Shown: in pieces, positions 2,685 through 38,409 of the stretch
Layout: each line of letters begins with the position of its first letter
Numbering within the stretch: position 1 is the stretch's first letter
IMG/VR virus record: IMGVR_UViG_3300037584_000567
Location: 1 to 38,409 of that record
From: a virus
Length of the DNA: 38,409 bases
Direction: 5' to 3' (one strand)
Made by a program: the position numbers and the translations under genes
Notes under the pieces: generated by a model
Told to the model about the DNA's origin: nothing
What the model saw: only the letters and a program-made list of their open reading frames with translations
Databases searched by the model: none

Positions 2685-4004
2685 TTAAAAAAAGTACATT
2701 CTATTAATTGGAGATATTTTATTCCATAATTCTTCTGGTTTTGCTCCTTTTTTCTTTGCATATTCCGCAAAAGATTTTTTAACGTCTTTTTTTAAATCTT
2801 TATATTGTAATGTAGTAGCTACGTTTCTTTTTTCTATACCCAATTTAGGTAAAAAAGAATTTATTGCTTCTAATTTAGACCTTGCTTCTACTCTAGTTTG
2901 TCTAGGATTATTAACATTATCTGCAATCTTTGCTAATCCGTTTCGTTTAGTAGTTAAATATGCGTGTATTTGTTCTATTTTTTCTATTGCATTTTCTTTA
3001 CTTTGTAAAAAAGATGGTTTTATATCAAGCATTTCTTCTATTTCTTGTCTTTCTTTATCTGCTTTAACATTCTCTCTTAATTTACTAGCAAGTTCTTGTG
3101 TAGCCATACCTAGTAACTGCCTCATTTCTCCTACACCTGGGTATGGTAATTTATCAGTAGCCTGACCAACAGTAATGTTTACAAAATTTTGATACCCTGA
3201 TAATATACCTGTTCCTTTTTCTACTCCTTGTAACATAGTTATACCAGACTCTTTAAATTTTTTATAGTAATCAGGTTCTGATGTACCACTTGCACCAAGT
3301 TCTGTTATAGTTTCTACTATAGGCTGTGAACCAATAGGCAACACTTTAGTAATACCAGTTCTAGTATTAATTTCTACCACTTGACCATTAACAGGGTCAT
3401 AATCCATTTTATAAAAACCATTAGTTAAATCAAAAGCTCGTTGAGGTGTTACCCCGCTTGTTATTAAAGTATGATAGGTTAAATCTTTTCCAGTTAAAGG
3501 TTTATCTGCAAATACTAAATCAGAATAATTACCTGTTTCTGTAGCTTTTTGTAAACTTTTAGGAGTATATTTATCTGTAGATATGCCTGTTAAAAAATCT
3601 TTCTTAACTTGTCTATTAGCTACTTTCTGTTTCTCTTCTAACATATCAGCTTGTTGTCTTAACCTTACTCCTACCATCTGTATATTAGGGTTAGGATTAT
3701 TATTTAATTTTCTAGCTACCTCTCTTAATCCCTCTGGTGTATTAGGGTCACCAACACCTAATACAGCATCTGTATAAGCTGTTTTTATCTCTTGCAACTG
3801 TTGAGCTTGTGCTTCTTCTGGTGTTTGTTGTCCAAATAAACGTCTAACACTACCTTGTAACTGCTCTCCACTTTGTGTAATACGCTGTGTTATGGCAGAC
3901 ATAGGTGACATAGCACCTCTACCTAGAGTGATAGGTTGTTGTAAAGCATTATTTTGTTGTGTTAATAAACTACTAAACAAACCTTCTGTTATTTCTTGTG
4001 CCAT
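2685..4004 (-). CDS. Internal virion protein, allele 1 of a mosaic gene
   Basis: A 439-residue helical protein with a clear AAGGAG ribosome site before its ATG. Its first roughly 90-100 residues are Gln-rich and contain the motif TPEEAQAQQLQEIKTAYTDA, which recurs almost unchanged in the gene running off the right end of the window (37106-38409). After about residue 100 the two proteins diverge completely, and their C-termini differ. The conserved N-terminus probably docks to a shared partner in the particle while the remainder is exchangeable. It lies between the 797- and 742-residue late proteins, the usual place of internal core genes. No enzyme motif was seen. The ejection-complex role is inferred from context. 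Confidence 0.6.
   Translation of the reverse strand: MAQEITEGLFSSLLTQQNNALQQPITLGRGAMSPMSAITQRITQSGEQLQGSVRRLFGQQTPEEAQAQQLQEIKTAYTDAVLGVGDPNTPEGLREVARKLNNNPNPNIQMVGVRLRQQADMLEEKQKVANRQVKKDFLTGISTDKYTPKSLQKATETGNYSDLVFADKPLTGKDLTYHTLITSGVTPQRAFDLTNGFYKMDYDPVNGQVVEINTRTGITKVLPIGSQPIVETITELGASGTSEPDYYKKFKESGITMLQGVEKGTGILSGYQNFVNITVGQATDKLPYPGVGEMRQLLGMATQELASKLRENVKADKERQEIEEMLDIKPSFLQSKENAIEKIEQIHAYLTTKRNGLAKIADNVNNPRQTRVEARSKLEAINSFLPKLGIEKRNVATTLQYKDLKKDVKKSFAEYAKKKGAKPEELWNKISPINRMYFF
3731..3889. repeat. Second end redundancy, matches 38251-38409
   Basis: Bases 3731-3889 align without gaps to the last 159 bases of the window with three mismatches (3757, 3758, 3762). Upstream of 3731 (downstream in the gene's own direction) similarity falls off quickly. 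The match continues to the last base of the window, so the right end would continue into sequence equivalent to 3890 onward. Together with the 1-443 match this closes the map into a circle. Confidence 0.85.
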
Positions 4005-10812: not shown

Positions 10813-12450
10813 CTATGCGTTCATAGTTATTACAACAATTCCATCAGCTCCATTTCCACCATTTGTTCCTGATCCGCCTTTTCCAGCACCACCTCCACCA
10901 GAACCAGTAAAGGACGTTCCATTACTACCATTTCCAGTTACAGAACCATCTCCGCCCACAGAGGAACTTCCACCTGTTCCTGCTGAATCAGCTCCAAACG
11001 CACCGCCCCCTCCACCTGCTGAATAAACAACAGATGAACCAGTTATTGAAGATGCTGTTCCGTTACCTCCGTTTCCACCTGAATTTGTACCTGAAGCATC
11101 AGAACCCGCACTAGTAGAACCACCTCCACCGCCTCCACCATTTTGCCCACTATTAGCATCTCCTCCATCATTGCCTTGAGATGGAGTAGTTGAAGGCGTA
11201 TTTCCACTACCACCTACTCTTCCGTTAGATGCCCCTCCACCAGACCCTCCGTTTTTCCCATTTGCTCCTGCGGTTCCTCCAATTCCATAACCTCCTGCAC
11301 CACCTCCAGTAGAAGTAATTGTTGAAAACACAGAGTTATTTCCATCACCACCATAAGAACCACCACCAGTTCCTGTACCGCCTCCACCTACTGTAATTGT
11401 GTATTCTGTACCAGAAGTAACTGATAAAGATGTACCAGTTCTAAAACCTCCAGCACCACCTCCACCACCGCCACCGTTAGATGGTGTTCCTCCCCCTGAA
11501 CCACCTCCTGCAACTACTAAGTAATCTACAGAAGATACTCCAACGGGGCATTTCCATTTTGTTGTGCCTCTAAATATTAGTGGTGAACTTGTAGGTACTG
11601 TGTATTTGATAACTACAATTCCTGAACCACCTGCTTTTCCATCCTTAAAAGTTCCACTACCACCGCCACCTCCACCACCGCCTCCACCAGTGTTAGCTGT
11701 GCCTGCCGAACCCCCTGTACCATTACTACCTTGTGTTCCACTGCCTCCGCCACCAGAGCCACCAGATGCATTAATGTTATCTCCTGCACCACCACCACCA
11801 CCTGCGTATGTTACAGATGCACCAGTTATGGTAGATGCTTGACCGTTACCTCCACTTCCTGCGGCAAAAGGAGATGATGTAGCATCTCCTCCTACAGCAC
11901 TAGCACCACCGCCTCCACCTGCGGCATTTGTAACAGCAGAAGACCCTCCGTTTTTACCTTGAAAAGCAACAGCAGGCGCTCCATTACCACCATCTGATGA
12001 AAGATTAGGGGTGTTACCAGAGCCATTAGAGCCGTTACCGCCTCCACCACCTCCAGAGCCTCCGTTACGACCGTTTCCACCACCAGCACCACCGCCTCCA
12101 CCTGCTGTTGAGGTTATGGTAGAAAATACTGAATCATTACCATCAAAACCTGAAGTATTACTAGTAACATCTAAAGCAGTAGCACCTGCACCTACAGTAA
12201 TTGTATATTCTGTTCCTGCGGTAACAGCTAATGAAGTGCCTGTTCTAAATCCTCCAGCACCTGCTCCACCACCATTTTGATTTACTCCAGTACCGCCTCC
12301 ACCACCTCCTGCAACTACAAGATAATCAACACTTGTAACGCCAGTAGGGCAAGTCCAAACAGTATTACCTAAAAAACTTTCAATAACTACAACTCCACCT
12401 ACAGAGGCAACAGAAAAATTAGAAAATAATAATTGATGTATTCCAGTCAT
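10813..12450 (-). CDS. Glycine-rich tail adhesin, two tandem domains
   Basis: A 545-residue protein in which a very large share of residues is Gly, in runs such as GGGGGAGG separated by Asn, Ser and Ala. Two domains are visible. Each opens with a short non-repetitive beta segment (TCPTGVTSVDYLVVAGG near residue 35 and KCPVGVSSVDYLVVAGG near residue 300), each followed by long Gly-rich tracts with ITVGAG- or FSTITST-like elements. Gly-rich stretches of this kind form polyglycine-II helix bundles in the receptor-binding adhesin gp38 of phage S16. By analogy this is likely the distal receptor-binding tip. It overlaps the upstream gene by one base (TAATG). Tract lengths are probably variable between strains. 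Confidence 0.65.
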   Translation of the reverse strand: MTGIHQLLFSNFSVASVGGVVVIESFLGNTVWTCPTGVTSVDYLVVAGGGGGGTGVNQNGGGAGAGGFRTGTSLAVTAGTEYTITVGAGATALDVTSNTSGFDGNDSVFSTITSTAGGGGGAGGGNGRNGGSGGGGGGNGSNGSGNTPNLSSDGGNGAPAVAFQGKNGGSSAVTNAAGGGGGASAVGGDATSSPFAAGSGGNGQASTITGASVTYAGGGGGAGDNINASGGSGGGGSGTQGSNGTGGSAGTANTGGGGGGGGGGSGTFKDGKAGGSGIVVIKYTVPTSSPLIFRGTTKWKCPVGVSSVDYLVVAGGGSGGGTPSNGGGGGGGAGGFRTGTSLSVTSGTEYTITVGGGGTGTGGGSYGGDGNNSVFSTITSTGGGAGGYGIGGTAGANGKNGGSGGGASNGRVGGSGNTPSTTPSQGNDGGDANSGQNGGGGGGGSTSAGSDASGTNSGGNGGNGTASSITGSSVVYSAGGGGGAFGADSAGTGGSSSVGGDGSVTGNGSNGTSFTGSGGGGAGKGGSGTNGGNGADGIVVITMNA

Positions 12451-16498: not shown

Positions 16499-16527
16499 AT
16501 TATAGCACACTTTTTTGTAAAAGTCAA
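16499..16527 (-). promoter_or_regulatory. Late sigma70 promoter before scaffold/capsid genes
   Basis: On the minus strand: TTGACT (16527-16522), a 17-base spacer, then TATAAT (16504-16499), with TG one base before the -10 hexamer (extended -10). The -35 box overlaps the portal stop codon. It would give extra transcription of the 90-residue protein, zinc ribbon, scaffold and capsid genes ahead of the two terminators. Confidence 0.8.
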
Positions 16528-18497
16528 GTATTTCTTGAAGATTGTAGTTGTAATTCTGCAATTCTAGCTTTTGTGTCTATATCTTTCTCTTTTAAAGCCA
16601 CATTTGCTAGTTTTATACGTCTTTCAAACTCTTTTGAAGGGTCGTCTGCGTCTCCAAGGTACTTAGAAGCACTAGCAGCTATCTTAGCTTGTGTTTCTAC
16701 TGGTTTTAACTGTGTTTCTACCGCTTCACCTTGTGCTTTAGCCTGTTTTAGTTGTACATCAGCCTGTAAATCTGCTAATTCTAGCTGTGCTTTCTGTAAT
16801 TGTAGCTGTATAGCAGCTTGTTGTGACTGTGCTTCCTGTGGATTAGGTTGCATCATCTGCTGTAGCTGTTGTATTAGCTGTTCTCTGTTGTTTAAACTAG
16901 AGTTTTCTATGATTGCAGATAGAACTAATGGTACAATTGGTGATTCTGCACCTAGTGTTTTCAGTAAATTCATAAACTGCATCTGCTCATGCTCTCTAGC
17001 TATGATACCTAAATTACTAGAAGGAATAAAAATAAAGTCTTGTGCAGGATACTTCTCAGGTTCAAACTGCATAAACCTATGTGCAGACTTAGTTATGAAT
17101 GGAATTAAAAACTGCTCTTGAAAGTTTATTAATGTTCTCTTGTTTTTCTTTATGATTGATGATAATGCTACAGATAATCCTGCTCCTTCAGCAGTAGTCA
17201 TTGCTTGTAATGATGAACTATCTATTGTTCCTGTAGCCATTAGTAGCATATTCATAAAAGAAGTAGCAGTGTTGATGTTAGAGCCATCTACTGAACCTAT
17301 CTTGAATGGATATAGTATCTCTGCTGGATTACCATTAGTAAGGATAGTCTTACCAGGCTTTACTTCAAACCTAGCACCTCTAGGTAGTCTGGTAGCATCC
17401 ATAGCCATCATAGGTACTGTAGCTAGTGCTACGCTGTCAAGGTGTGAACGCACTTGAGCATCAATAGCCTTTTGCATATTGTAGCCCTTCTCAGCAATAC
17501 CACGACCCCAGAAACGATTAGGAACACTATCATTTTGAAAAGAAACAATAGGTCTATCTTTCATCATGTAAGGTGACTCTTCTGCTTTGAGTAAATACTG
17601 CTCATTAGCTATAACTACTATTCCTTCTACAAGGTCACTAAAGTCTGCTGCTTGAGTACCATACTCATCTGCTTGTTTGTTGAATACTTCTTCATACTTT
17701 TCTGAATCATCTTGATTCTCTATCATATACTTTGGTATGAGTCCATAGTATCTTAACAACTTAACTCTGTTCTCTTGATAGTCAGATACTTCTTGTGACG
17801 GTTCTAAATCAGTCTCTATAGCATACTGAGATAGGTCTGAGACTGTCTCATAGACTCCTGACTCCATTGCTGCTACTACAGAGTGGATAGATACCAATTC
17901 TTCAATAGCACAGCCTAGAGCCTCCTGTACGTTGCTTGCAGAAGGGTCTATCAAAAAGTTGTATGGTGTAACTGGTTTGAGTCCAACACAGAACCTCGTT
18001 TTTTCTTGTACTCCTACTGCTGTAATACCCATCTCTACTACTGGTTGCATAGCTGGTATTAGTTCTTTCTTTTCATATACAGTAATCTCACCAATACCGT
18101 TACCATAGATTGCAGATAGTAAAATAATATCAGAGATTGACTTTCTTACGTTACCTTTCTTAAAGTCTTCTATCATCTGACTACGAATCATCTGAATATC
18201 AATCTTTTGTGGATCAAAACCATCATCAGTAATATCAAAGAACTTCTCTCCTCTACCAAACACAGCTTCTTCTATTTCTGCTGTATGTGACTCTATCGCT
18301 TGTTGCAGTGCAGGAGTGATTATTCTGGCTCTTTCAGAATCTCTGGTTTTGTCTGCTGGGTCAAAGATACCTCTAAACAATCTTTCATACTCTTGCCACT
18401 TGTCCAGATAGTTTGTATCTCTGTGTACTTTCCATTGGTCACATTGACCTAGTACCCATGATACAAGAGGATTTACTGTTTTACTGTCATCATACAT
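16524..18497 (-). CDS. Portal protein
   Basis: A 657-residue protein starting MYDDSKTVNPLVSWVLGQCD. Portal features include the N-terminal LERLF-type segment (KWQEYERLFRGIFDPADK), RARIITPALQQAIESHTAEI at about 60-85, a central beta/helix region with FLIDPSASNVQEA, and a long Gln/Ala-rich helical C-terminus (about 560-650) as in podoviral portals that form a barrel. The portal is the dodecameric ring through which DNA is pumped by the terminase. It directly follows the large terminase gene. The length of about 650 is larger than T7 gp8 (536) and nearer to other marine podoviruses. Confidence 0.88.
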   Translation of the reverse strand: MYDDSKTVNPLVSWVLGQCDQWKVHRDTNYLDKWQEYERLFRGIFDPADKTRDSERARIITPALQQAIESHTAEIEEAVFGRGEKFFDITDDGFDPQKIDIQMIRSQMIEDFKKGNVRKSISDIILLSAIYGNGIGEITVYEKKELIPAMQPVVEMGITAVGVQEKTRFCVGLKPVTPYNFLIDPSASNVQEALGCAIEELVSIHSVVAAMESGVYETVSDLSQYAIETDLEPSQEVSDYQENRVKLLRYYGLIPKYMIENQDDSEKYEEVFNKQADEYGTQAADFSDLVEGIVVIANEQYLLKAEESPYMMKDRPIVSFQNDSVPNRFWGRGIAEKGYNMQKAIDAQVRSHLDSVALATVPMMAMDATRLPRGARFEVKPGKTILTNGNPAEILYPFKIGSVDGSNINTATSFMNMLLMATGTIDSSSLQAMTTAEGAGLSVALSSIIKKNKRTLINFQEQFLIPFITKSAHRFMQFEPEKYPAQDFIFIPSSNLGIIAREHEQMQFMNLLKTLGAESPIVPLVLSAIIENSSLNNREQLIQQLQQMMQPNPQEAQSQQAAIQLQLQKAQLELADLQADVQLKQAKAQGEAVETQLKPVETQAKIAASASKYLGDADDPSKEFERRIKLANVALKEKDIDTKARIAELQLQSSRNT

Positions 18498-18539: not shown

Positions 18540-19793
18540 TTAGTAGCCTGTTATCATGTCTAGTGGTTCATATTCTTCTTCTTCATAGTATGTAGTATAT
18601 TCTGGTATCTGTACCTGTGTGATATACGACAAAGCATCTATTAAATCATCATGCACCTGTGGGTTAGGAAACTGTAACAACTGATCTAAGAACTCTTTAT
18701 TCCATTCTCCTTTATTCAGAGTAATTTTACCATGCTCAAACCTACCCTGTAATGCCCATGTAATTCTATCAATCTTTTTCTTGTTTCCATGAGTTACATC
18801 TTCTACTCTGAAGTAGGTGTTGTATTGACGCATCATATCTGACAAGTAACCCATTACTGCATTTTTACCAATACCTTTTTCTATTCCTACACACAAAGGC
18901 TGAAAGTCTGTTACTGCTTGAAATATCTTAGAAGCAGTCTTCTTAATATCCCAACGACCATGTTCTATACTATGAACCCACCATCTATCTTCATCTACTT
19001 TTACTATTGCTATAGCGGTTTGGTCTAGTCTTTTCTTCCTAGCAGTGTTAGCATGAGCTACATCAGAGAATCCTGCAATATCACAAGCTATATACCATCT
19101 ACCTCTTTCTGGTTCTTGTTCATCATACTGTATCCAGTCTTCTTTGAATAAACCACCACTAGCAGCTTCAAAAGAAGCCATAAACTCTTGTCTGAAAGCA
19201 AAGCTAGACATTGACTTTCTAGCTGCTTCTATCTCTTTTGGGTCTAGTAAATCATTATCAAAAGAGTTAAAATGCCATGCTTTGAACTCTGAATCACCGC
19301 TATCGTTAGCGTAGTTGTATAAATCAAAGAAATGGTTTCTACCATAAGGTGTGCCTATAAACAACGCAGAGCCTTTCTGGTCAGCTAGAGCAGGTCTGAT
19401 AATAGTTTCCCATACCTCTGACTTCATAGAGCCATACTCGTCCATTACAACAAACTTTAGAGATACTCCACGCATTGTCTCTGGTCTATCTGCACCTTTC
19501 AATGATATTGTAGTACCATTGATGAGTTTAATCTGTAGATTATTAATATGACTAGAATCTACTACTGGGTGTCCTAACTCAAGAAGAGTAGACCACATTA
19601 CATCTCTAGCCTGTCCCTGAGTGTTGGCTATGTACCAGACATGACCTTTCTCAGTTTGAAGAGCATTAATAATTAATAACCATGCTGCTAGTCTGGATTT
19701 ACCAGTTCTTCTACCAGCTACTACTACTTTGAATCTAGTGGTATCATTCCATACCTTCTGTTGCCATGATAGTAACTTTACATCAAGCTCCAT
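18540..19793 (-). CDS. Terminase large subunit
   Basis: A 417-residue packaging motor. The ATPase domain has a Walker A motif AGRRTGKS at about residues 26-33 and a Walker B FVVMDEYGS with Asp118-Glu119. Residues 140-160 include ALFIGTPYGRNH, the coupling motif region. The C-terminal nuclease domain (from about 230) starts with YIACDIAGFSD, where Asp is a catalytic candidate, and includes a later DDLIDALSY. The protein pumps DNA into the procapsid and cuts concatemers. Its start overlaps the end of the putative small subunit gene by 11 bases. Confidence 0.93.
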   Translation of the reverse strand: MELDVKLLSWQQKVWNDTTRFKVVVAGRRTGKSRLAAWLLIINALQTEKGHVWYIANTQGQARDVMWSTLLELGHPVVDSSHINNLQIKLINGTTISLKGADRPETMRGVSLKFVVMDEYGSMKSEVWETIIRPALADQKGSALFIGTPYGRNHFFDLYNYANDSGDSEFKAWHFNSFDNDLLDPKEIEAARKSMSSFAFRQEFMASFEAASGGLFKEDWIQYDEQEPERGRWYIACDIAGFSDVAHANTARKKRLDQTAIAIVKVDEDRWWVHSIEHGRWDIKKTASKIFQAVTDFQPLCVGIEKGIGKNAVMGYLSDMMRQYNTYFRVEDVTHGNKKKIDRITWALQGRFEHGKITLNKGEWNKEFLDQLLQFPNPQVHDDLIDALSYITQVQIPEYTTYYEEEEYEPLDMITGY

Positions 19794-25427: not shown

Positions 25428-25602
25428 AAATAATAATGGTGTTAAGACTTTTCATGTATTATTTGATGATGGCACAATAAAATCACGACTAGAGGGTCAT
25501 AATGATTGGACAACAGAGCAACCTTGTATTTCTGGACATAGAGACAACGATGGATCACCAAAAGATACATCTGGTGGTAACAAACGCAAACGGAATAATT
25601 AA
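25396..25602 (+). CDS. Small hydrophilic protein overlapping polymerase start
   Basis: 68 residues from ATG 25396 (MSKPISLSVTENNNGVKT), with GAAAAGGACGAAG before it. It has a beta-like region (FHVLFDDGTIKSRLEGHNDW) and a polar C-terminus ending in NKRKRNN. Its last 101 bases overlap the DNA polymerase start in another frame, and its first bases overlap the coiled-coil gene. No family recognised. Confidence 0.55.
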   Translation: MSKPISLSVTENNNGVKTFHVLFDDGTIKSRLEGHNDWTTEQPCISGHRDNDGSPKDTSGGNKRKRNN

Positions 25603-27145
25603 GTGCCACAGAGATCCACAAAGTCTAAAAAAAGAGATACAGGGAAAAATCTTAGTAGCTCACAACGGGATAGGGTTCGATTACCCAGTTCTAAACAGGG
25701 TATGGGGTCTAAGAATCAAGCTGCATCAGGTTTTAGACACTCTGGTGTTAAGCAGATTGCTGAACCCAATGAGGACAAAACACTCTCTTGCGTCTTGGGG
25801 AGAGGATCTAGGCTTCCCTAAAACAGAGTTCAACCAGTTCGATCAATACTCAGAAGAGATGAGACAATATTGTATAAATGATGTGAAGGTATTAGAGAGA
25901 GTTTATAATCAACTTATTATGGAGAAAAAGAAACATGGATTTGATGAAACAAGTATACGACTCGAACATGAAGTTTGTGCAATTGTCAGCAAGCAAGTCA
26001 GCAGAGGCTTTAAGCTCAATGTCGAAGGCTGCGAAAGACTATGTGGAGTTCTGTCAGGACGAATGGAAGAAATATGTGAAGGATTACAAAAGTCCTTTCA
26101 GCCAATTGTTCACCAACGAGTCTCAGAAAAAACAGGAAAGCCGTTAAAGGATTATATTGAAGAATTTAATCCAGCATCAAGACAGCAGATATCTAAGAGG
26201 TTACAAGCAGTTGGATGGAAGCCAAAGAAGTTTACAGAGAAAGGTTCAGTCATTGTCGATGAATCGGTTTTACGAGGAGTTGATATTCCAGAAGCAAAAC
26301 TCATCTGTGAATATTTACTCTTACAGAAAAGGCTCTCTCAAGTTACCTCTTGGATTGAAGCTGTATCAGACAAACACAGGGTTCATGGTAAGGTCATTAC
26401 CAATGGAGCAGTAACAGGAAGAATGACACACCACAGTCCTAATCTAGCACAAATACCATCAGTAAACGCAGAATATGGCTCAGAATGTCGTGAGCAATGG
26501 GTTGTTGACCCTAGCTACAAGCTGGTAGGTATCGATGCTAGTGGCTTAGAGCTACGGATGTTAGCTCACTACATGAATGATGAAGAATACACAAGGGAGG
26601 TAGTTGATGGAGACATACACACTAAGAACCAATTAGCAGCAGGGCTTGACACAAGAGCCAAAGCAAAGACTTTTATTTATGCTTTCTTATATGGTGCAGG
26701 TGCTAAAAAAATAGGTAGTATCACAGGCACAAATGGTGCATCTATTATAAAGAAGTTTATGAAGAACGTACCAGCCCTTGCAGAACTGAAAGAGAAGATA
26801 ACTGTGAACTTAGAAAAGAAGGGAACACTACCAGGCTTGGATGGTAGACGGTTATTTATACGTTCAGAACACGCAGCACTAAATACTTTATTGCAAGGTG
26901 CTGGTGCTATCGTGATGAAGAAGGCTCTTGTGATATTTAATAAGTATATTAAGTTGTATGAACTAGATGCACACTTTGTAGCAAACGTGCATGATGAATG
27001 GCAGTTAGAAGTAAAAGAAGAAGATGCGGAACTTGTTGGTCAGTTAGGAGTCAGATCAATAGTTAACGCAGGTAGAGCATTGAAGTTAAACTGTCCTTTG
27101 GATGGTGAGTATAAGGTAGGTAATAACTGGAAAGAAACACACTAA
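25502..27145 (+). CDS. Family A DNA polymerase (T7-like) with 3'-5' exonuclease
   Basis: 547 residues. The exonuclease domain begins at once with VFLDIETT (Asp12, Glu14), then AHNGIGFDYPVL and YCINDVKVLE. The polymerase domain has motif A GIDASGLELRMLAHYM at about 345, motif B RAKAKTFIYAFLYGAG at about 385-400, and motif C NVHDEWQLEV at about 496. The position equivalent to E. coli Phe762 / T7 Tyr526 is Tyr, a variant associated with fast lytic marine phages. It is shorter than T7 gp5 (704), with no visible thioredoxin-binding loop, so its processivity partner may differ. ATG 25502 is behind GAGGGTCATA. Confidence 0.94.
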   Translation: MIGQQSNLVFLDIETTMDHQKIHLVVTNANGIIKCHRDPQSLKKEIQGKILVAHNGIGFDYPVLNRVWGLRIKLHQVLDTLVLSRLLNPMRTKHSLASWGEDLGFPKTEFNQFDQYSEEMRQYCINDVKVLERVYNQLIMEKKKHGFDETSIRLEHEVCAIVSKQVSRGFKLNVEGCERLCGVLSGRMEEICEGLQKSFQPIVHQRVSEKTGKPLKDYIEEFNPASRQQISKRLQAVGWKPKKFTEKGSVIVDESVLRGVDIPEAKLICEYLLLQKRLSQVTSWIEAVSDKHRVHGKVITNGAVTGRMTHHSPNLAQIPSVNAEYGSECREQWVVDPSYKLVGIDASGLELRMLAHYMNDEEYTREVVDGDIHTKNQLAAGLDTRAKAKTFIYAFLYGAGAKKIGSITGTNGASIIKKFMKNVPALAELKEKITVNLEKKGTLPGLDGRRLFIRSEHAALNTLLQGAGAIVMKKALVIFNKYIKLYELDAHFVANVHDEWQLEVKEEDAELVGQLGVRSIVNAGRALKLNCPLDGEYKVGNNWKETH

Positions 27146-30638: not shown

Positions 30639-30797
30639 ATGGCATTGACATTAAATGATATATGTGATAGACTTAAAAACCTTGACGAAGTTTCGTTGCT
30701 TGAAGTATTAGATATAGCATCTGAGGACATAGTAGATAGATTTAACGATAGAATAGAAGATAAAGCGGATTTATTAGAAGAGGAGTTAAAAGATTGA
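30639..30797 (+). CDS. 52-residue conserved acidic helical protein
   Basis: ATG 30639, one base after the DUF3310 stop, behind GGGGGTAAT. The product, MALTLNDICDRLKNLDEVSL then LEVLDIASEDIVDRFNDRI, is an acidic two-helix protein. I recognise near-identical small proteins beside ribonucleotide reductase or nucleotide genes in marine podoviruses; function unknown. The stop overlaps the TTG of the reductase. Confidence 0.7.
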   Translation: MALTLNDICDRLKNLDEVSLLEVLDIASEDIVDRFNDRIEDKADLLEEELKD

Positions 30798-32683
30798 ATA
30801 CATACAGTCAGTTTATAGCAAAGAGTCGTTATGCAAGATACTTAGAAGACCAACAAAGAAGAGAAGATTGGAGTGAGTCTGTTCAAAGATATATGGACTT
30901 TATGGTTAATCATCTAGAAGCAGAGCATGGTCATATAGTAGAAACACCAACAAAACTAAAAGTACAAGAAGCAATAGAGAAGTTAGAAGTTATGCCATCT
31001 ATGAGGGCTATTATGACTGCTGGTAAGGCACTAGATAGAGACAATACTGCTGGGTATAATTGTTCTTATCTTCCTATTGATGATGTTAAGGCATTTGATG
31101 AAGCTATGTATATTCTTCTCTGTGGAACAGGTGTAGGGTTCTCTGTAGAGCATAAGTACGTTGAGAAGCTACCAGAAGTCCCTGAGAAGCTATTTGAGTC
31201 TGAGACTAACATAGTAGTAGCTGATAGCAAAGAAGGCTGGGCAAAGGCTCTTAGACAGCTTATAGCCCTATTGTATAGTGGTGAAGTACCTAAGTATGAC
31301 TTATCTAAAGTTAGACCATCAGGAGCTAGGTTAAAAACCTTTGGTGGTAGAGCATCAGGATCAGAACCATTGAATCAATTGTTTCAGTTCACTATCTACA
31401 AGTTTAAACAGGCTGCTGGTAGGAAGTTATCATCTATTGATTGTCACGATATACTATGTAAGATTGGTGAAGTAGTAGTTGTAGGTGGTGTTAGAAGGTC
31501 AGCTATGATATCACTATCAGACTTAGAAGATGATAAGATGAGAGCCTGTAAGTCTGGTGCCTGGTGGGAATACAATCCACAGAGAGCATTGGCTAACAAC
31601 TCTGCTATGTACGATGAGAAGCCTGATATGAGCCAGTTTATGAAGGAATGGTCTAGCTTGTATGAGAGTAAGTCAGGTGAGCGTGGTATCTTCAGTAGAG
31701 CAGCATCAAAGAGACAAGCTGATAAGAATGGTAGAAGAGATATTAACTATGACTTTGGTACAAACCCTTGTAGTGAGATTATACTTAGACCATACCAGTT
31801 CTGTAATCTAACTGAGGTGGTAGTCAGAGCAGAAGACACACCAGCTGATATAGCAGACAAAGTAGAGATAGCAACAATACTAGGTACATGGCAGTCTACA
31901 CTTACTAAGTTTCCATACTTGCGTAAGGTATGGCAGAAGAACACAGAAGAAGAAAGACTGCTAGGAGTGTCATTAACAGGCATTCTGGATAACAAAGTAA
32001 TGGGAGATGTAAATGATGGAGCAAGAAGAATCTTACGAGAACTCAAACAAGTGGCTGTTGAAACAAACGCTAACTTATCTACTCTTCTCGGAATCCCTCA
32101 ATCGACTGCTATTACTTGTGTCAAGCCTAGTGGTACTGTGTCTCAGCTTGTTGATTCTGCCAGTGGTATTCATCCTAGACACTCTAGTTATTATATTCGC
32201 AGGGTGCGTGGTGATAAAAAAGACCCTCTTTCCCAGTTCTTAAAAGACCAAGGAGTTCATACTGAAGACTGTGTTATGAAGCCTGATTCTACTGTTGTAT
32301 TCTCATTCCCAATAGAAGCTCCTGAAGGTGCTACAGTTAGAGATGATTTAACAGCTATAGACCATCTTGAGTTGTGGATGATGTATCAGAAGGAGTGGTG
32401 TGAGCATAAGCCATCTGTGACCATAAGCGTCAAGGAAGAGGAATGGATGGAAGTAGGGGCATGGGTATGGAAGAACTTTGATGACATATCAGGTATATCA
32501 TTCCTACCTTATGATGGTGGCTCTTATAGACAAGCTCCATATGAAGAGTGTACAAAAGAAGAGTATGTTAAGCTACTAGGTAACACTCCTCCAAAGATAA
32601 AATGGAATGAGTTAGTAGAAGTAGATGATAATGTTAAAGGAGTACAAGAGTTAGCTTGTTCTTCAGGAAGCTGCGAGGTTTAA
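30794..32683 (+). CDS. Ribonucleotide reductase, monomeric class II-like (cobalamin type)
   Basis: 629 residues from TTG 30794 (overlap TTGA). It resembles the monomeric adenosylcobalamin-dependent triphosphate reductase of Lactobacillus. NTAGYNCSYLP carries a first redox Cys at about 90. CGTGVGFSVE follows; then NPCSEI (thiyl-radical Cys and catalytic Glu) with QFCNL (second redox Cys) near 325-340; then VKPSGTVSQLVDSASGIHPR. The C-terminus, ELACSSGSCEV, is a CxxxxC shuttle pair. It makes deoxynucleotides with no partner subunit. Related cyanophage enzymes have been argued to be class I, so the cofactor should be tested. Confidence 0.9.
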   Translation: MNTYSQFIAKSRYARYLEDQQRREDWSESVQRYMDFMVNHLEAEHGHIVETPTKLKVQEAIEKLEVMPSMRAIMTAGKALDRDNTAGYNCSYLPIDDVKAFDEAMYILLCGTGVGFSVEHKYVEKLPEVPEKLFESETNIVVADSKEGWAKALRQLIALLYSGEVPKYDLSKVRPSGARLKTFGGRASGSEPLNQLFQFTIYKFKQAAGRKLSSIDCHDILCKIGEVVVVGGVRRSAMISLSDLEDDKMRACKSGAWWEYNPQRALANNSAMYDEKPDMSQFMKEWSSLYESKSGERGIFSRAASKRQADKNGRRDINYDFGTNPCSEIILRPYQFCNLTEVVVRAEDTPADIADKVEIATILGTWQSTLTKFPYLRKVWQKNTEEERLLGVSLTGILDNKVMGDVNDGARRILRELKQVAVETNANLSTLLGIPQSTAITCVKPSGTVSQLVDSASGIHPRHSSYYIRRVRGDKKDPLSQFLKDQGVHTEDCVMKPDSTVVFSFPIEAPEGATVRDDLTAIDHLELWMMYQKEWCEHKPSVTISVKEEEWMEVGAWVWKNFDDISGISFLPYDGGSYRQAPYEECTKEEYVKLLGNTPPKIKWNELVEVDDNVKGVQELACSSGSCEV

Positions 32684-32684
32684 T

Positions 32685-32816
32685 ATGTGGGAGATTACAC
32701 CAATATCAGGAGTAATGGTAGGAGTAGAGTATCAACATGATGCTAATGATTATAAGTATTTAGTTATAGACTTTTTTCTTGTGAGGTTTACTTTTCATTA
32801 TGATGCTAGTGAATAA
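32685..32816 (+). CDS. 43-residue hypothetical between reductase and cytochrome
   Basis: ATG 32685 opens two bases after the reductase stop; the protein is MWEITPISGVMVGVEYQHDA then NDYKYLVIDFFLVRFTFHY. Mostly beta-like and aromatic-rich. Its end overlaps the cytochrome start by 17 bases. No family recognised, though short MWEI/VIDLFLIRI-type proteins occur elsewhere in phages in my memory. Confidence 0.5.
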   Translation: MWEITPISGVMVGVEYQHDANDYKYLVIDFFLVRFTFHYDASE

Positions 32817-33114
32817 AATGATAATACTATTGATAGCACTATTATTTAATCCTGTATTTGCAGGTGATATAAAACTAGGTGAAGCAAAGTTTAATAAGAA
32901 CTGTAAGCAGTGTCATGGACCAGCAGGTATGGGTCTAGCTAGTTATCCAAAGGTGTCTGGTAATGATATTGCTTACACTATAGATAGACTAAAAAACTAT
33001 AGAGCAGGTATTGAAATAGGACCAAACTCATCTTTAATGATAATGATGGCTAGACCTTTATCTGATGTAGATATTGAAAACTTAGCAGCTTACTTAAAGG
33101 AAGCAAAGAGGTAA
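32800..33114 (+). CDS. Secreted c-type cytochrome (c553/c4-like)
   Basis: 104 residues. Residues 1-21 are a signal peptide (basic Lys6, core MIILLIALLFNPVFA, cleavage likely after Ala21). C35-K-Q-C38-H39 is a single haem c site. The remainder, with YPKVSGNDIAYTIDRLKNYRA and RPLSDVDIENLAAYL, matches class I cytochromes c. The second axial ligand is one of Met80, Met82 or Met83. The mature protein is about 83 residues and would work in the periplasm after host Ccm-dependent haem attachment. It would carry electrons to or from a host oxidase or dehydrogenase. I know of few lytic podoviruses with this gene. It sits right after the ribonucleotide reductase. Confidence 0.88.
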   Translation: MMLVNKMIILLIALLFNPVFAGDIKLGEAKFNKNCKQCHGPAGMGLASYPKVSGNDIAYTIDRLKNYRAGIEIGPNSSLMIMMARPLSDVDIENLAAYLKEAKR

Positions 33115-33161
33115 TGCTTAACGATTTATTACACGTTTACGTTCTTATGGAGGTATAAAGT

Positions 33162-33356
33162 ATGATTATGGGTATATTAAATATTATCAAACATGGTGTA
33201 CTTATACTGTATGTAAGTTTTATTGTTAGTTTAATTCTAATAGGTGCGGTTGGAGAGTTTGTAGTAGAAGATAAGAGAGGATTACAGGAGTTTTTAGTAG
33301 TAGCTGCTATATTCACTCCAATCTACCTTGCTTTCTTGTGGGGTAAAAATGAGTAA
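33162..33356 (+). CDS. Two-span small membrane protein
   Basis: 64 residues behind GGAGGTATAAAGT. Spans at about 12-32 (VLILYVSFIVSLILIGAVGE) and 44-60 (EFLVVAAIFTPIYLAFLW). A short charged loop holds EDKRG and the protein ends in GKNE. No family recognised. It neighbours the secreted cytochrome and another membrane protein, so envelope action is likely. Confidence 0.65.
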   Translation: MIMGILNIIKHGVLILYVSFIVSLILIGAVGEFVVEDKRGLQEFLVVAAIFTPIYLAFLWGKNE

Positions 33357-33594
33357 TATTCTTATATTTATATTAGGATGTAGTGTTAGTTATTTATTAT
33401 TATACCAAGGCAGAGAAGAAATACATGATTTATGGAAGGTAGCTTACAAAATAGGCAAAGATGATGGTACTTCTGTAGCCAAGGCACAGTATGAATGGAC
33501 AGAAGAAAGACTTAGTGAAGAGTGTATGTTGTTACACTTTGAGAAAGATGAGAAGCGTAGAAGTAACCTAGGATTAAAAGGGCTAGGTCAATGA
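33349..33594 (+). CDS. Single-span membrane protein
   Basis: 81 residues from ATG 33349 (MSNILIFILGCSVSYLLLYQ) with GTGGGGTAAAA before it; a TTG seven codons upstream has no ribosome site. One N-terminal span at about 3-18, including a lipobox-like LGCS whose Cys may be lipidated. The rest is charged and helical. Function unknown. Its stop overlaps the next ATG (ATGA). Confidence 0.6.
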   Translation: MSNILIFILGCSVSYLLLYQGREEIHDLWKVAYKIGKDDGTSVAKAQYEWTEERLSEECMLLHFEKDEKRRSNLGLKGLGQ

Positions 33595-33752
33595 CAATAG
33601 TTGAATCACCTTGTATTGGTATTTGTGAACTACAAGACAATGTTTGTATTGGCTGTAATAGAACAGTTGAACAAATTACCAATTGGGAAACTATGAGTCA
33701 CGAAGAAAAAGAAAAGGTAATAAATTCTTTATCTAGTACGACCATACAGTAG
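33591..33752 (+). CDS. DUF1289 protein
   Basis: 53 residues from ATG 33591. The motif SPCIGICELQDNVCIGCNRT holds Cys8, Cys12, Cys19 and Cys22, then TNWETMSHEEKEKVINSL. This is the DUF1289 signature of small proteobacterial proteins, probably metal-binding. In bacteria it is widespread and of unknown function. A host-derived DUF1289 gene together with a cytochrome suggests an accessory cassette taken from a proteobacterium. The last 20 bases overlap the end of the endolysin gene on the other strand. Confidence 0.8.
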   Translation: MTIVESPCIGICELQDNVCIGCNRTVEQITNWETMSHEEKEKVINSLSSTTIQ

Positions 33753-34122
33753 GTCTAGGTCTAAAAGTAGAGTTTTCAGATGTATCTAAGTGAATGAACC
33801 TACCACTGCCTTTCTGTTGCACTCCTATGCCAGTAAAACCAAGCTCAAAAGCTAGTGACATAAGCTGGTAAGCGTCACCTCTACTTACCTTTACATCAGC
33901 AGCTAAACCATCATGGTGAACACCTGGAGTCTTTTTCTTTAGTTCTATAGGGTGTGTTCTTGCTCTGTATCCACTTGTAATCACCATAGGTTGACCATAG
34001 TATTCTCTTAGTTGATTCATCTTATTGATAAACTCTTGATCCATGTTACACTCACCAGTAGCACTACACTTAAACTCATTTTCACTAAAATACTTACCCC
34101 AGTCTATAATATACTTTTTCAT
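33733..34122 (-). CDS. Peptidase M15 family endolysin
   Basis: 129 residues. HHDGLAAD (His69, Asp76) and FIHLD (His111) are the zinc-binding HxxGxAxD and HxD parts of the M15 D-Ala-D-Ala carboxypeptidase/endopeptidase family. The upstream TSGYRARTHPIELKK is the usual substrate-side motif. The enzyme cuts peptide crosslinks of peptidoglycan for lysis and lacks a signal peptide, so it needs the holin next door. It is the final gene of the late array, ends two bases before 33732 and overlaps the converging DUF1289 gene. Confidence 0.88.
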   Translation of the reverse strand: MKKYIIDWGKYFSENEFKCSATGECNMDQEFINKMNQLREYYGQPMVITSGYRARTHPIELKKKTPGVHHDGLAADVKVSRGDAYQLMSLAFELGFTGIGVQQKGSGRFIHLDTSENSTFRPRPTVWSY

Positions 34123-34768: not shown

Positions 34769-35265
34769 TGTACTCCCTTTATTGAGTCAATTAAGAACTG
34801 CACCATCCACCATCCAGCCATAAGCAGAACAGCTATAATAGATAACATAGTGGAATTGTAAATGAGTTCTTTACGTTTGCGTATTTGTTGGTATACCTGA
34901 GCTTCTCGTTTGCGTTGAATTGACCTTCTAATCTGTATTAGCTGTTTATAACCATCTGCACCAAGATGGTGCAATGAACCCCAGTAGAACATATGCTTTA
35001 GTTCTTTCTCCATCTCTTTAATTCTTTGTCTTGCAGCAAGTTCATCAAATGCTTCTGCTGTGCTTGACTTAGTGTAAGTAATCTTCTTGAATATAGATGG
35101 CTTACTTTCTTCTTGTGTTAAACAGAACTTTACATCTTCTACCGCAGAAGCCCATTTACCTAGCTGTGAGAATACTTCTTGAGCTTCTTTACCATAGTTT
35201 ACTGCTGTCTTGATACCCTGAAATACTGCATTTGCTGTAGCCAAAGCTGTGATTGGGTCGATCAT
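34765..35265 (-). CDS. Late protein with C-terminal membrane span
   Basis: 166 residues from ATG 35265 (MIDPITALATANAVFQGIKT). The middle is basic and helical (RQRIKEMEKELKHMFYWGSL). A single span lies near the C-terminus at about 137-160 (TMLSIIAVLLMAGWWMVQFL). Upstream it overlaps the 610-residue ejection gene (ATGA). The gene is repeated at 1-443 as a 98% identical copy with TTG start. The family is not one I know. A role in the ejection apparatus or lysis is possible. Confidence 0.6.
   Translation of the reverse strand: MIDPITALATANAVFQGIKTAVNYGKEAQEVFSQLGKWASAVEDVKFCLTQEESKPSIFKKITYTKSSTAEAFDELAARQRIKEMEKELKHMFYWGSLHHLGADGYKQLIQIRRSIQRKREAQVYQQIRKRKELIYNSTMLSIIAVLLMAGWWMVQFLIDSIKGVQ
34823..35265. 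repeat. Copy 2 of end redundancy (see 1-443)
   Basis: Complete flanking partner of bases 1-443, with the same gene intact. The flanking genes differ on the right side (35266 onward versus 444 onward). Confidence 0.85.
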
Positions 35266-37094
35266 TGTCCTGTCATCATTCCTTCTCTAACTCCTTGATT
35301 ACTTCTTTCTCTTTCCATAGCAGGAGCAGTTATTAAACTTCCTTTAATATAAGGTAAATCTCCTTTTAATGTTTTTCCTAATTTTTTAAAAAATGGACTT
35401 CTTGATCTTAATAAAAAATCTAAGGCTTCTTGTCCTGTTTCAGAATATATACCAGTTCCTATAGCAATGCCTCCTATTGTTAAAGTTGGCTCAACAAAAC
35501 CAGCAGTTCCTGTACCAATTGTAGCTAATCTTCTTATATTTTGTTCAGACATACTTAACGCTTCTCTACCACCATAAAACGTACCCTCTTCGCCTAAGGC
35601 TTCTGCACCAGCTTCAGCAATAGTTTGACCAGGTATTTTACCTAATCCAAAATTTACTTTATCTCTTGAATTATCTCCTGCTCTAATTGCTTTTAAATAA
35701 GCATTAGGAGTAAATGTTCCTAATTTTGAATTTATATCAGACGCTGCTACTTTCATAGCATGAAGTTGTCCATAACCAGAATCTATTTTTGCTAATTGTT
35801 TTCCTAAATCTCCATTTTGACTGTAAAAATTTTTCTTTAATGTTTTTCTAACACTTTCTAAGGCAAAAGCCTCATCTAATGTTTCAGGATTTTTAAATAA
35901 TTTTATTATTTTAGCTCTTAAACCAGAGTCCATTCTTTTAAAATCTTCTCCTGATATTTCTAAAGTTCCTTTAGGTTTACCAGCCATAAAATCAAATTCT
36001 TTAAAATTAGTGTATATTTCATCATCTATGTAATCTTGTACTGTTTTTCTTGCTTTAGGTGTTCTTAAACCTGCTTCATTTAAAGAATCTAACACTTCTT
36101 TTGTTATTTTAGTACCATTTAATGAAAATTTTGTTCCTTTTAATGTTTGATTATATGCCTCATCTAATTGTTTAGCAGCATAATTTAAAGCTGGTCTACC
36201 TATAACTTTTGTTTTTGGTATTTCATTTCTAAAAGGTATTGGCAATGTATCTAATGCTTTGTTAATCAATCCTTCATTAAACTTATATAAAACTTTTTGT
36301 TGTTGATTTTCAATTTGTTTTCCTATTATTGGTAAAAATTTAGCAAATTCTTCTATATTTTTTACAGCCCCTCCAAAAGTTTGTCCTGTAGTGGGTCTAA
36401 CACCTAGATTACGCATTAATTTTTCTGCTTCAGATACTACAGGATCTAACACTTTTCCTGTTCCTGTAACTACAGCTTCTCCTGCTAAACCAGTTAAAGT
36501 ACCTCCAGCAACTAGTTTACCTTTTTCATAAACAAAATCTATTTGATTTTTTTCATCAGTTACTGGAGTTCCTAATCCTTGTGTTGCTCCTACTACCATT
36601 GATTTAACAAATTTAGGAGCTTTTTCAACAAGTTCAACTGTTTTAAGTGCTGTTACAAAACTAGTAGGGTTAAGTATATTAAAAAAAGTTCTATCAAAAT
36701 CATATCCTTTTTCACCACTTTCTAATCTTCTTGCTTGATAAGCATTTTCTTCATCTGCTATTGTTTCATTTAATCTTTTAGATTCGTTTTCTAACCATTT
36801 ACTAACTTGATTAGGACTTAAACCAAATCCTGACGCTATTTTTGATAAGGTATAAGGCAATAATTGGGCGTAAGCATCTATAGGATCTTTTAAACCTTTT
36901 ACTGTTCCACTAGGAATATACTTTTCTCCAAAAGGTTTTACATCAAAACCAGAAAGACCAGTAAAATCTTCAGGGGCTTCTTCAACATCAGAAACACCTT
37001 TTGATCTTAATTCAGAAGCAATTTGATCTATTTCTTCTTCTGATAATTTGTTAGGAGTTCTAATTTTTTTACCATCTATTATGTATGTAGGCAT
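35262..37094 (-). CDS. Internal virion / ejection protein, allele 2
   Basis: 610 residues in the map position of the 742-residue protein at 445-2673, with no visible sequence relation. The N-terminus, MPTYIIDGKKIRTPNKLSEE, is a short domain often seen at the start of phage internal or tail proteins. Residues about 165-215 are Gly/Thr-rich and weakly hydrophobic. Residues 520-560 include another Gly-rich stretch (GFVEPTLTIGGIAIGTGIYS). Long charged helices lie between. This supports the same class (ejection protein) but a different origin. AT-rich coding compared with tail genes. Confidence 0.55.
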   Translation of the reverse strand: MPTYIIDGKKIRTPNKLSEEEIDQIASELRSKGVSDVEEAPEDFTGLSGFDVKPFGEKYIPSGTVKGLKDPIDAYAQLLPYTLSKIASGFGLSPNQVSKWLENESKRLNETIADEENAYQARRLESGEKGYDFDRTFFNILNPTSFVTALKTVELVEKAPKFVKSMVVGATQGLGTPVTDEKNQIDFVYEKGKLVAGGTLTGLAGEAVVTGTGKVLDPVVSEAEKLMRNLGVRPTTGQTFGGAVKNIEEFAKFLPIIGKQIENQQQKVLYKFNEGLINKALDTLPIPFRNEIPKTKVIGRPALNYAAKQLDEAYNQTLKGTKFSLNGTKITKEVLDSLNEAGLRTPKARKTVQDYIDDEIYTNFKEFDFMAGKPKGTLEISGEDFKRMDSGLRAKIIKLFKNPETLDEAFALESVRKTLKKNFYSQNGDLGKQLAKIDSGYGQLHAMKVAASDINSKLGTFTPNAYLKAIRAGDNSRDKVNFGLGKIPGQTIAEAGAEALGEEGTFYGGREALSMSEQNIRRLATIGTGTAGFVEPTLTIGGIAIGTGIYSETGQEALDFLLRSRSPFFKKLGKTLKGDLPYIKGSLITAPAMERERSNQGVREGMMTGQ

Positions 37095-37105
37095 TATTAA
37101 TTCCT

Positions 37106-38409
37106 TTAATTTTCAACAATTGTGTATGATGTGCCTTTAGTTGTAAAACCTATCTCTTCATTATAGTATTTATATAATTTAAATAAGTCATCATCTTCTT
37201 TAATATTTACTCTAAATATATCAATATTTTTATTATAATTATTTTTTAATGTTTTAAAAAGCCTAGATAATATTTTTTCTCTTCCTAAAGAAGATAAAGA
37301 TAATTTATTACCTTTTACTTCACGCATAAAATTTAATTCTTCATTAGAGTCATTACCTCCTAATAATTTCATACTTTGTAATACATTATCTGCTGTTAAA
37401 GACTGTATAAATTCTGTATTTGCTATTTTTAACTTTTCTTCTTCTGACACAAATGCTTGATTTTTTATTTTTGCTATTTGTTGTTTTATTTCTGCAAAAG
37501 TACCACTAAAAGGAGTACCATCAATTTTTTTTCCTTGTGAATCTTTAAATGTATTTCCTTGCGCATCTTTATTTTTAAGTAGTAGAACCGCTTTTCTAAC
37601 ACTATCAATAACTGATGTTCCATTATTTAAAACTTTTTCTACAGTCTCAGCACTCTTAGTTAAAAATTCTTTTTTAAATGGATTTTCTTCATCTTTAGTA
37701 GGAGGATGCATTTTTTCATACTCTTCAACAAATATTTTTTGATCTTCAGTAGCATTTCCTTTGCGTATATTAAATCTAGCTTCTATGTATGCTTCTTTAT
37801 TAAATTTTTTATCTTTTGGGTTAACTTTATACACTAATTTATCTACTGTTTTATACCATTTATCAGGATTATTAGGATTTTGTAATACTGCTTTTCTTAC
37901 TTCTCCTATACTTTCCATTGTGTGTTTACCACCTTTAATTAAATTATTTAAAAATATTATAGGATCTCTAGCATTTTGATAGGCTTCTGTTTCAGATTTT
38001 TTAGTTTCAAAAGCATTAATTATTTCTTTTTCTGTTACTTCACCTTTTTGTTTAGCAGTTTGTAATTCTTCATAAGTTTTATAAAATTTACCACCAATAA
38101 ATAAATTTTGCTGTATTTCAGGAGGAAGTTTTGTTTCCCTGCTTTTATTTGCAATTCTTACCCTTTCAGCTTCTTTAATTAAGTTATGACCTACTAACTG
38201 AATATTAGGATTAGGGTTATCAATTAATTTAGTGCCTGCTGCTATTAGTCCCTCTGGTGTATTAGGGTCACCAACATTTAACACAGCATCTGTATAAGCT
38301 GTTTTTATCTCTTGCAACTGTTGAGCTTGTGCTTCTTCTGGTGTTTGTTGTCCAAATAAACGTCTAACACTACCTTGTAACTGCTCTCCACTTTGTGTAA
38401 TACGCTGTG
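37106..38409 (-). CDS. Internal virion protein, allele 2 (5' end beyond window)
   Basis: The frame is open to the right edge. The conserved part, SVRRLFGQQTPEEAQAQQLQ, continues past a TTG that could be mistaken for a start, so the real start lies beyond the window. The first residues seen match the 439-residue protein at 2685-4004. After about the IQMVG/IQLVG segment the two diverge and have different C-termini (this one ends TKGTSYTIVEN). Lys/Asn-rich helical sequence of at least 433 residues. Function inferred as for the allele-1 partner. Confidence 0.65.
   Translation of the reverse strand, partial: QRITQSGEQLQGSVRRLFGQQTPEEAQAQQLQEIKTAYTDAVLNVGDPNTPEGLIAAGTKLIDNPNPNIQLVGHNLIKEAERVRIANKSRETKLPPEIQQNLFIGGKFYKTYEELQTAKQKGEVTEKEIINAFETKKSETEAYQNARDPIIFLNNLIKGGKHTMESIGEVRKAVLQNPNNPDKWYKTVDKLVYKVNPKDKKFNKEAYIEARFNIRKGNATEDQKIFVEEYEKMHPPTKDEENPFKKEFLTKSAETVEKVLNNGTSVIDSVRKAVLLLKNKDAQGNTFKDSQGKKIDGTPFSGTFAEIKQQIAKIKNQAFVSEEEKLKIANTEFIQSLTADNVLQSMKLLGGNDSNEELNFMREVKGNKLSLSSLGREKILSRLFKTLKNNYNKNIDIFRVNIKEDDDLFKLYKYYNEEIGFTTKGTSYTIVEN
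38251..38409. repeat. Copy 2 of second end redundancy (see 3731-3889)
   Basis: The final 159 bases match 3731-3889 except for three bases, and the match continues to the end of the window. This is the anchor by which the right end joins back to the sequence after 3889. Confidence 0.85.

Follow-up and report, generated by a model that had tools for sequence, protein, structure and literature searches.

A predicted secreted cytochrome c gene in marine phages whose cellular relatives adjoin a putative sugar dehydrogenase gene

The cytochrome locus and its phage genome

The window, i.e., the whole 38,409-nt stretch analysed here, is a 38.4-kb virus record that carries genes for a terminase, a P22/SU10-type portal, a family A DNA polymerase, a primase-helicase, a class II ribonucleotide reductase (RNR) and an endolysin. 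A short cytochrome c gene lies between the RNR and endolysin genes (Table 1). The portal is distantly like those of HMO-2011-type phages. The closest named relatives of the DNA polymerase are found in the Pelagibacter phages HTVC103P/104P (52%), and the RNR is closest to those of Lentibacter and Roseobacter phages (67-68%). As to the host, the polymerase would point to Pelagibacter phages and the RNR to Roseobacter-group phages.

Table 1. Features of the window that bear on the cytochrome gene
Feature	Position	Strand	Basis or remark
Portal protein	16524..18497	-	Pfam, PHROGs; phage identity
Terminase large subunit	18540..19793	-	Pfam, PHROGs; phage identity
Family A DNA polymerase	25502..27145	+	Pfam, PHROGs
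Class II (B12-dependent) RNR, nrdJ	30794..32683	+	PHROG 367, E 2e-190; left anchor
43-aa ORF, conserved immediate left neighbour	32685..32816	+	Present in L123-L125 and L127, all without the cytochrome
Cytochrome c gene (104 aa), an auxiliary gene carried on a cassette	32800..33114	+	ORF, Pfam, PDB match, AlphaFold
Predicted signal peptide, residues 1-21	32800..32862	+	Read from the sequence
Single-gene insertion, 352 bp	32808..33159		Occupied/empty site alignment with syntenic relatives L124, L125
Haem attachment motif CKQCH, residues 35-39	32902..32916	+	Sequence and alignment
NSSLMIM, signature of the subfamily, containing Met80 as the presumed distal haem ligand	33025..33045; Met80 33037-33039	+	Alignment
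64-aa ORF of membrane type, conserved, directly to the right of the cytochrome	33162..33356	+	Adjoins the empty site in L124, L125
79-aa conserved small protein	33355..33594	+	Comparison with relatives
Endolysin (peptidase M15), start of convergent late module	33733..34122	-	PF08291, PHROG 894

The cytochrome ORF is uninterrupted by stop codons over exactly the interval given in Table 1. Its product, MMLVNKMIILLIALLFNPVFA followed by GDIKLGEAKFNKNCKQCHGPAGMG..., has a hydrophobic signal peptide, a single CXXCH motif close to the mature N-terminus and a Met-containing loop, NSSLMIMMA. Read by eye from the sequence and the alignment, signal peptide cleavage would occur after residue 21, between VFA and GD, and the homologues keep this boundary as FA followed by GD or GN. 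Met7 (32818) is an alternative start, and several homologues begin at or near its equivalent. An alignment of 40 phage and bacterial cytochromes has 31 invariant columns; Cys35, Cys38 and His39 are invariant in all 40. So is Met80, which aligns with the Met in the LMAPHA segment of PDB 8yts and is, by this position, the presumed ligand.

The protein matches the Pfam families Cytochrom_C (PF00034; E 5e-10, 41 bits against a cut-off of 21.3) and Cytochrome_CBB3 (E 1e-8). The closest solved chain is 8yts, the cytochrome c546/556 of Thioalkalivibrio paradoxus (E 8e-22 by sequence, 48% identity by Foldseek). An AlphaFold model of moderate confidence (mean pLDDT 79, pTM 0.69) aligns by VIA-align with 8yts (Z 9.9) and 1cno (Z 9.8) over 78 residues; its matches to 8yts, 1cno and 2zzs, at Z 9-10, place it in the cytochrome c fold, that of c4/c5/c552-type carriers according to the model alignment. 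The net charge at pH 7.5 is about +2.4, and most phage copies are mildly basic. The first-pass annotation had considered the signal peptide, the CKQCH site and the class I cytochrome residues to be intact, and ORF, Pfam, the 8yts match and the model agree in this. They confirm an intact class I monohaem cytochrome c gene, whose product is predicted to be secreted and loaded with haem.

Comparison with relatives showed how the gene sits in the phage genome. In L124 and L125, the RNRs are respectively 90% and 88% identical to that of the window and the neighbouring genes are the same, but the cytochrome is missing; the alignment shows a single clean 352-bp gap. The occupied arrangement with the same junctions recurs, as far as the contigs reach, in L001, L002, L023 and L105, which bear different IMG sample numbers. 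An assembly join, which the earlier reading had named as the result that would overturn it, is excluded for practical purposes because the junctions recur in independent contigs and the relatives have the exact empty site. Cellular DNA can indeed occur in virome surveys (PMC3877843), but the same junctions in four other contigs, the phage genes on both sides, the exact empty site and the absence of an adjoining dehydrogenase gene (see below) leave to a chimera or to cellular contamination a negligible probability. The gene is therefore phage-borne, as had been proposed: it lies between conserved phage genes and recurs in other viral contigs.

Several other features of the window were noticed. 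A 24-nt imperfect direct repeat (79%; 32732-32755 and 32795-32818) lies at the left-hand boundary of the cassette; it is perhaps due to chance and too weak to be called an insertion footprint. A scan for promoters and terminators returned no more than in shuffled sequences. Positions 33591-33752 encode a 53-aa DUF1289 protein (PF06945, E 3e-17), a member of a cellular family with conserved Cys; this ORF is also present in L124 and L125 and unmatched in L123. Two putative virion proteins at opposite ends of the record (37106-38317 and 2685-4004) have a 62-residue stretch in common (61% identity), a partial duplication or domain exchange, whereas the adjoining genes (35262-37094 and 445-2673) are dissimilar.

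Distribution of the gene among viruses

Two scans of IMG/VR found the cytochrome in 27 further contigs, most of them with 66-99% identity to the window protein and two (L120, L121) with 50-65%. Together with the 31 invariant columns, this recurrence goes far beyond chance. They fall into about five phage genome contexts. In the window type the gene follows nrdJ, and in a podovirus-like type it follows the NrdA and NrdB genes and precedes a long convergent gene. A third type has it with the genes for a Gly-rich protein and IscA; a fourth, of 144 kb, has the order IscU, IscA, cytochrome, nuclease and deformylase; and in L021 it is found with T4-like neck and sheath genes. The slot is thus just after an RNR gene in two podovirus types and beside iscA (and iscU) elsewhere. 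A terminase was found on the 38-, 103- and 144-kb cytochrome-bearing records.

Among the RNR relatives the gene is mostly missing. Among the nrdJ matches listed, which leave out the cytochrome-bearing L001 and L002, 57 loci extend 1 kb or more downstream and none of these carries it; among the nrdB loci fetched 8 have it against 55 (at least 1 kb downstream) without it. It was absent record-wide from all 20 relatives searched whole. The cytochrome gene is, in consequence, accessory and patchy among close relatives. This agrees with the accessory slot previously proposed, where the neighbours are kept and the cytochrome is missing in close relatives. The search in relatives that had been suggested as a check had two outcomes, the 27 further viral contigs and the empty site of L124 and L125.

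Because the cytochrome is patchy among RNR relatives, the RNR adjacency is a shared slot and not a shared pathway. A role as electron donor for RNR was also rejected on the ground that the cytochrome has a secretion signal and RNR is cytoplasmic; furthermore, the RNR neighbourhood is not retained in other phage types.

The gene was not found by tblastn with three phage versions against the 50,697 phages of INPHARED, where the window protein gave, up to E 10, a single spurious match (E 6). It was likewise unmatched in PHROGs, and the viral structures of BFVD gave nothing under E 2.6. These results, together with the patchiness among close relatives, bear out the earlier remark that such a cytochrome lies outside the standard podoviral gene set.

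Other genes of the cytochrome-bearing phages were noticed. The 144-kb contig and its relatives (L116, L117, L119) contain a segment (L117:8851-10309) encoding a small Cys-containing secreted-type protein, an IscU-type scaffold, an IscA-type carrier and the cytochrome c, possibly a module for Fe-S and respiration upkeep. In IscA-type phages, a multi-helix membrane-like protein of ~319 aa without a Pfam match is encoded near the cytochrome (L120:11321-12280, minus strand; also L121 and L016). Very Gly-rich repeat proteins, probable tail fibres, are encoded by phages that have the cytochrome in common but otherwise differ (L118:6875-9670, L016:3230-5938, window 10813-12450).

Cellular relatives, acquisition and selection

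Among marine alpha- and gammaproteobacteria, a genome scan revealed 51 close cellular homologues of the monohaem type. A gene for a glucose/sorbosone dehydrogenase (GSDH) is present in the locus of all 48 homologues with downstream sequence, and this gene (~434 aa) is the next one on the same strand in 47 of the 50 loci with a called cytochrome ORF, at a median gap of 24 nt; the remaining three contigs stop at or near the cytochrome. The scan queried short cytochrome peptides only, in two patterns, so that the choice of query cannot have produced the pairing. In the same scan, GSDH was found beside none of the 29 diheme or more distant relatives.

The neighbour was identified as PF07995 GSDH in the five cases sampled (E 4e-45 or better). 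It has a signal-like N-terminus, is related to the solved aldose/glucose dehydrogenases 3a9g, 2ism and 2g8s and to Acinetobacter sGDH (1c9u), and keeps the HNG and GHRN motifs in 45 of 45 sequences; it is predicted to be a periplasmic PQQ-type enzyme. GSDH was present in all 16 cellular genomes checked.

The phage proteins resemble these GSDH-upstream cytochromes in subfamily (about 50-73% identity), signal peptide, CXXCH and the NSxLMIM loop. The loop occurs in 24/24 phage copies, in 48/50 GSDH-linked cellular cytochromes and in 0/18 diheme relatives, its frequency among cellular matches being somewhat inflated, as one of the two scan patterns came from the loop. By these sequence features, the phage cytochromes belong to the GSDH-linked monohaem subfamily. 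They differ from the bacterial ones in that most form a clade of their own, in the motif (CKQCH in the phage, mostly CGNCH or CINCH in bacteria) and in lacking the dehydrogenase. The two-gene cytochrome c-GSDH operon is not found in the phage, GSDH not being downstream: no PF07995 protein was found on 13 cytochrome-bearing phage records, nor any GSDH relative in the viral contigs. Because the phages have no GSDH, the link to this enzyme is an inherited context and not one shown in the phage.

A tree built on the mature domain, whose 85 columns limit its resolution, has the phage rows nested among cellular rows. The main phage clade comprises 20-21 sequences (support 100/98). The L021 cytochrome is placed among alphaproteobacterial plankton rows (L025-L033) and those of L120 and L121 beside L053, L067 and L070, of which two bear the label Pelagibacterales. 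The AU test rejects one common origin for every phage copy (p-AU 0.0022), but does not reject a tree in which L021 or L120 by itself joins the main clade (p 0.13 and 0.16). Since a grouping of all the phage rows is thus rejected, the tree points to at least two acquisitions by phages, that of the main clade and at least one separate. Phylogeny had been proposed as a way to find the host donor; it shows cellular sisters of the phage copies.

The phage cytochrome is under purifying selection: in the main phage group, the median dN/dS is 0.107 and the maximum 0.31 over 94 usable pairs (Nei-Gojobori, 79 codons). A passenger gene captured by chance from host DNA, without benefit to the phage, could be patchy among close relatives as this one is, but the dN/dS of about 0.1, a 20-21-sequence clade that spans several genome types and the repeated acquisition make such an origin very improbable. 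The gene is host-derived and metabolic, belongs to a true phage genome, is accessory and is maintained by selection, and it can be called an auxiliary metabolic gene.

A possible carrier for host sugar oxidation

GSDH is the likely electron donor of the phage cytochrome, rather than, or besides, the bc1 complex, because its cellular relatives are the dedicated upstream neighbours of GSDH. We consider it somewhat probable that the auxiliary gene feeds the terminal oxidase during infection as an acceptor of electrons from the host GSDH. In this model, for which we infer partner, expression and host as well as haem loading, donor, acceptor, timing and benefit, marine phages would have taken the gene from Pseudomonadota, most likely from alphaproteobacterial plankton. 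The cytochrome would be exported to the periplasm, receive its haem from the host cytochrome c maturation system, accept electrons from the PQQ-dependent aldose (glucose/sorbosone-type) dehydrogenase of the host and hand them to the host cytochrome c oxidase. Sugar oxidation and the proton-motive force could thereby be kept running while host protein synthesis fails. The cytochrome may be a limiting or short-lived part of the sugar-oxidation chain; the phage would bring the carrier and rely on the host for the dehydrogenase. For this branch of GSDH, we know of no experimental identification of the electron acceptor. Among the cellular relatives, at least one (L035) is labelled as HIMB59/AEGEAN-169, plankton described as sugar-oriented (PMC10308909); such relatives suit the GSDH proposal and are no proof of the host.

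The main rival is a generic respiratory carrier that would replace or supplement the soluble host carrier linking the bc1 complex to cytochrome c oxidase, GSDH having no special part in it. The fold of c4/c5/c552-type carriers and a structural match to 8smr, a cytochrome of a bc1-cbb3 supercomplex, speak for it, as do the phages without GSDH and the Fe-S assembly genes flanking the cytochrome in two phage types, which suggest upkeep of the whole chain; these iscA/iscU neighbours fit a general respiratory upkeep equally well, and the carrier may have been repurposed after transfer. The bulk charges give no support to a complementarity between phage cytochrome and GSDH, both being basic (about +6 to +14 at pH 7.5 for the GSDH of alphaproteobacterial plankton relatives). 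However, the cellular relatives are tied in 48/48 cases to GSDH and not to bc1 or oxidase genes, every one of the 24 phage copies has kept the NSxLMIM loop, and it would be a coincidence that several phage lineages picked this particular cytochrome, so that we regard the generic carrier as unlikely. An electron sink or decoy, which would divert electrons or block host partners to protect against oxidative stress or to shut down competing respiration instead of feeding the oxidase, is more improbable still: carriage without the enzyme would permit it, but purifying selection has strictly preserved the haem ligands and the presumed docking loop, as in a working carrier, and no peroxidase-type feature was seen in the phage protein. 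We thus retain the GSDH-linked carrier as the preferred reading. The respiratory role previously put forward is consistent with the evidence, and the generic carrier to the oxidase is refined, the relatives being GSDH-linked and GSDH the likely donor.

A broader proposal, on which we would lean slightly to the side of doubt, is that "carrier without enzyme" is a strategy at which several marine phage lineages, unrelated to one another, arrived by convergence: they would encode the dedicated GSDH cytochrome, in some lineages with iscU and iscA, and so take over a direct electron route from sugar to oxygen in abundant heterotrophs of the ocean. If true, this would be a counterpart, in respiration, of the photosynthesis genes of cyanophages. 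It is mainly from photosynthesis that phages are known to manipulate host energy. Here, phages that probably infect marine heterotrophs have a soluble respiratory cytochrome whose partner enzyme can be identified, and infection could in this concrete way sustain both respiration and the oxidation of sugar in the ocean.

Phage-supplied small soluble electron carriers are known from the cyanophage auxiliary genes for plastocyanin (petE) and ferredoxin (petF). The cases are alike in supplying a small carrier and not a large enzyme complex, whereas the proteins are unrelated and the hosts photosynthetic there, as against a haem carrier and a presumed heterotroph here. Phages also carry soxD and soxC, and SoxD is a cytochrome-type auxiliary protein of a host oxidation pathway (PMC8190135), in this respect like the window gene. 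SoxD is, however, part of a sulfur-oxidising enzyme and has CxxCHG with a second motif, CMxxC (PMC8190135); the window protein has CKQCHG only, and a SoxD identity was rejected for the lack of the second motif. The "viral cbb3-type cytochrome c oxidase" reads of marine viral fractions (PMC3474794) are respiratory too, but represent an oxidase subunit assigned from environmental virome reads, whereas the window gene encodes a soluble carrier and lies within a phage genome. Haem precursor synthesis (vAlaS) is known to occur in phages (PMC11480375), and cytochrome carriers were not observed in the phages of an oxygen-minimum-zone survey (PMC8115048). We found no description of a phage soluble cytochrome c, or of its link to GSDH, in the open-licence literature; electron-carrier auxiliary genes being already known in phages, it is the GSDH-linked cytochrome c that appears to be new. 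As for the T. paradoxus cytochrome, we know of no partner for it, and it has HTALMAPHA where the phage protein has the NSxLMIM loop.
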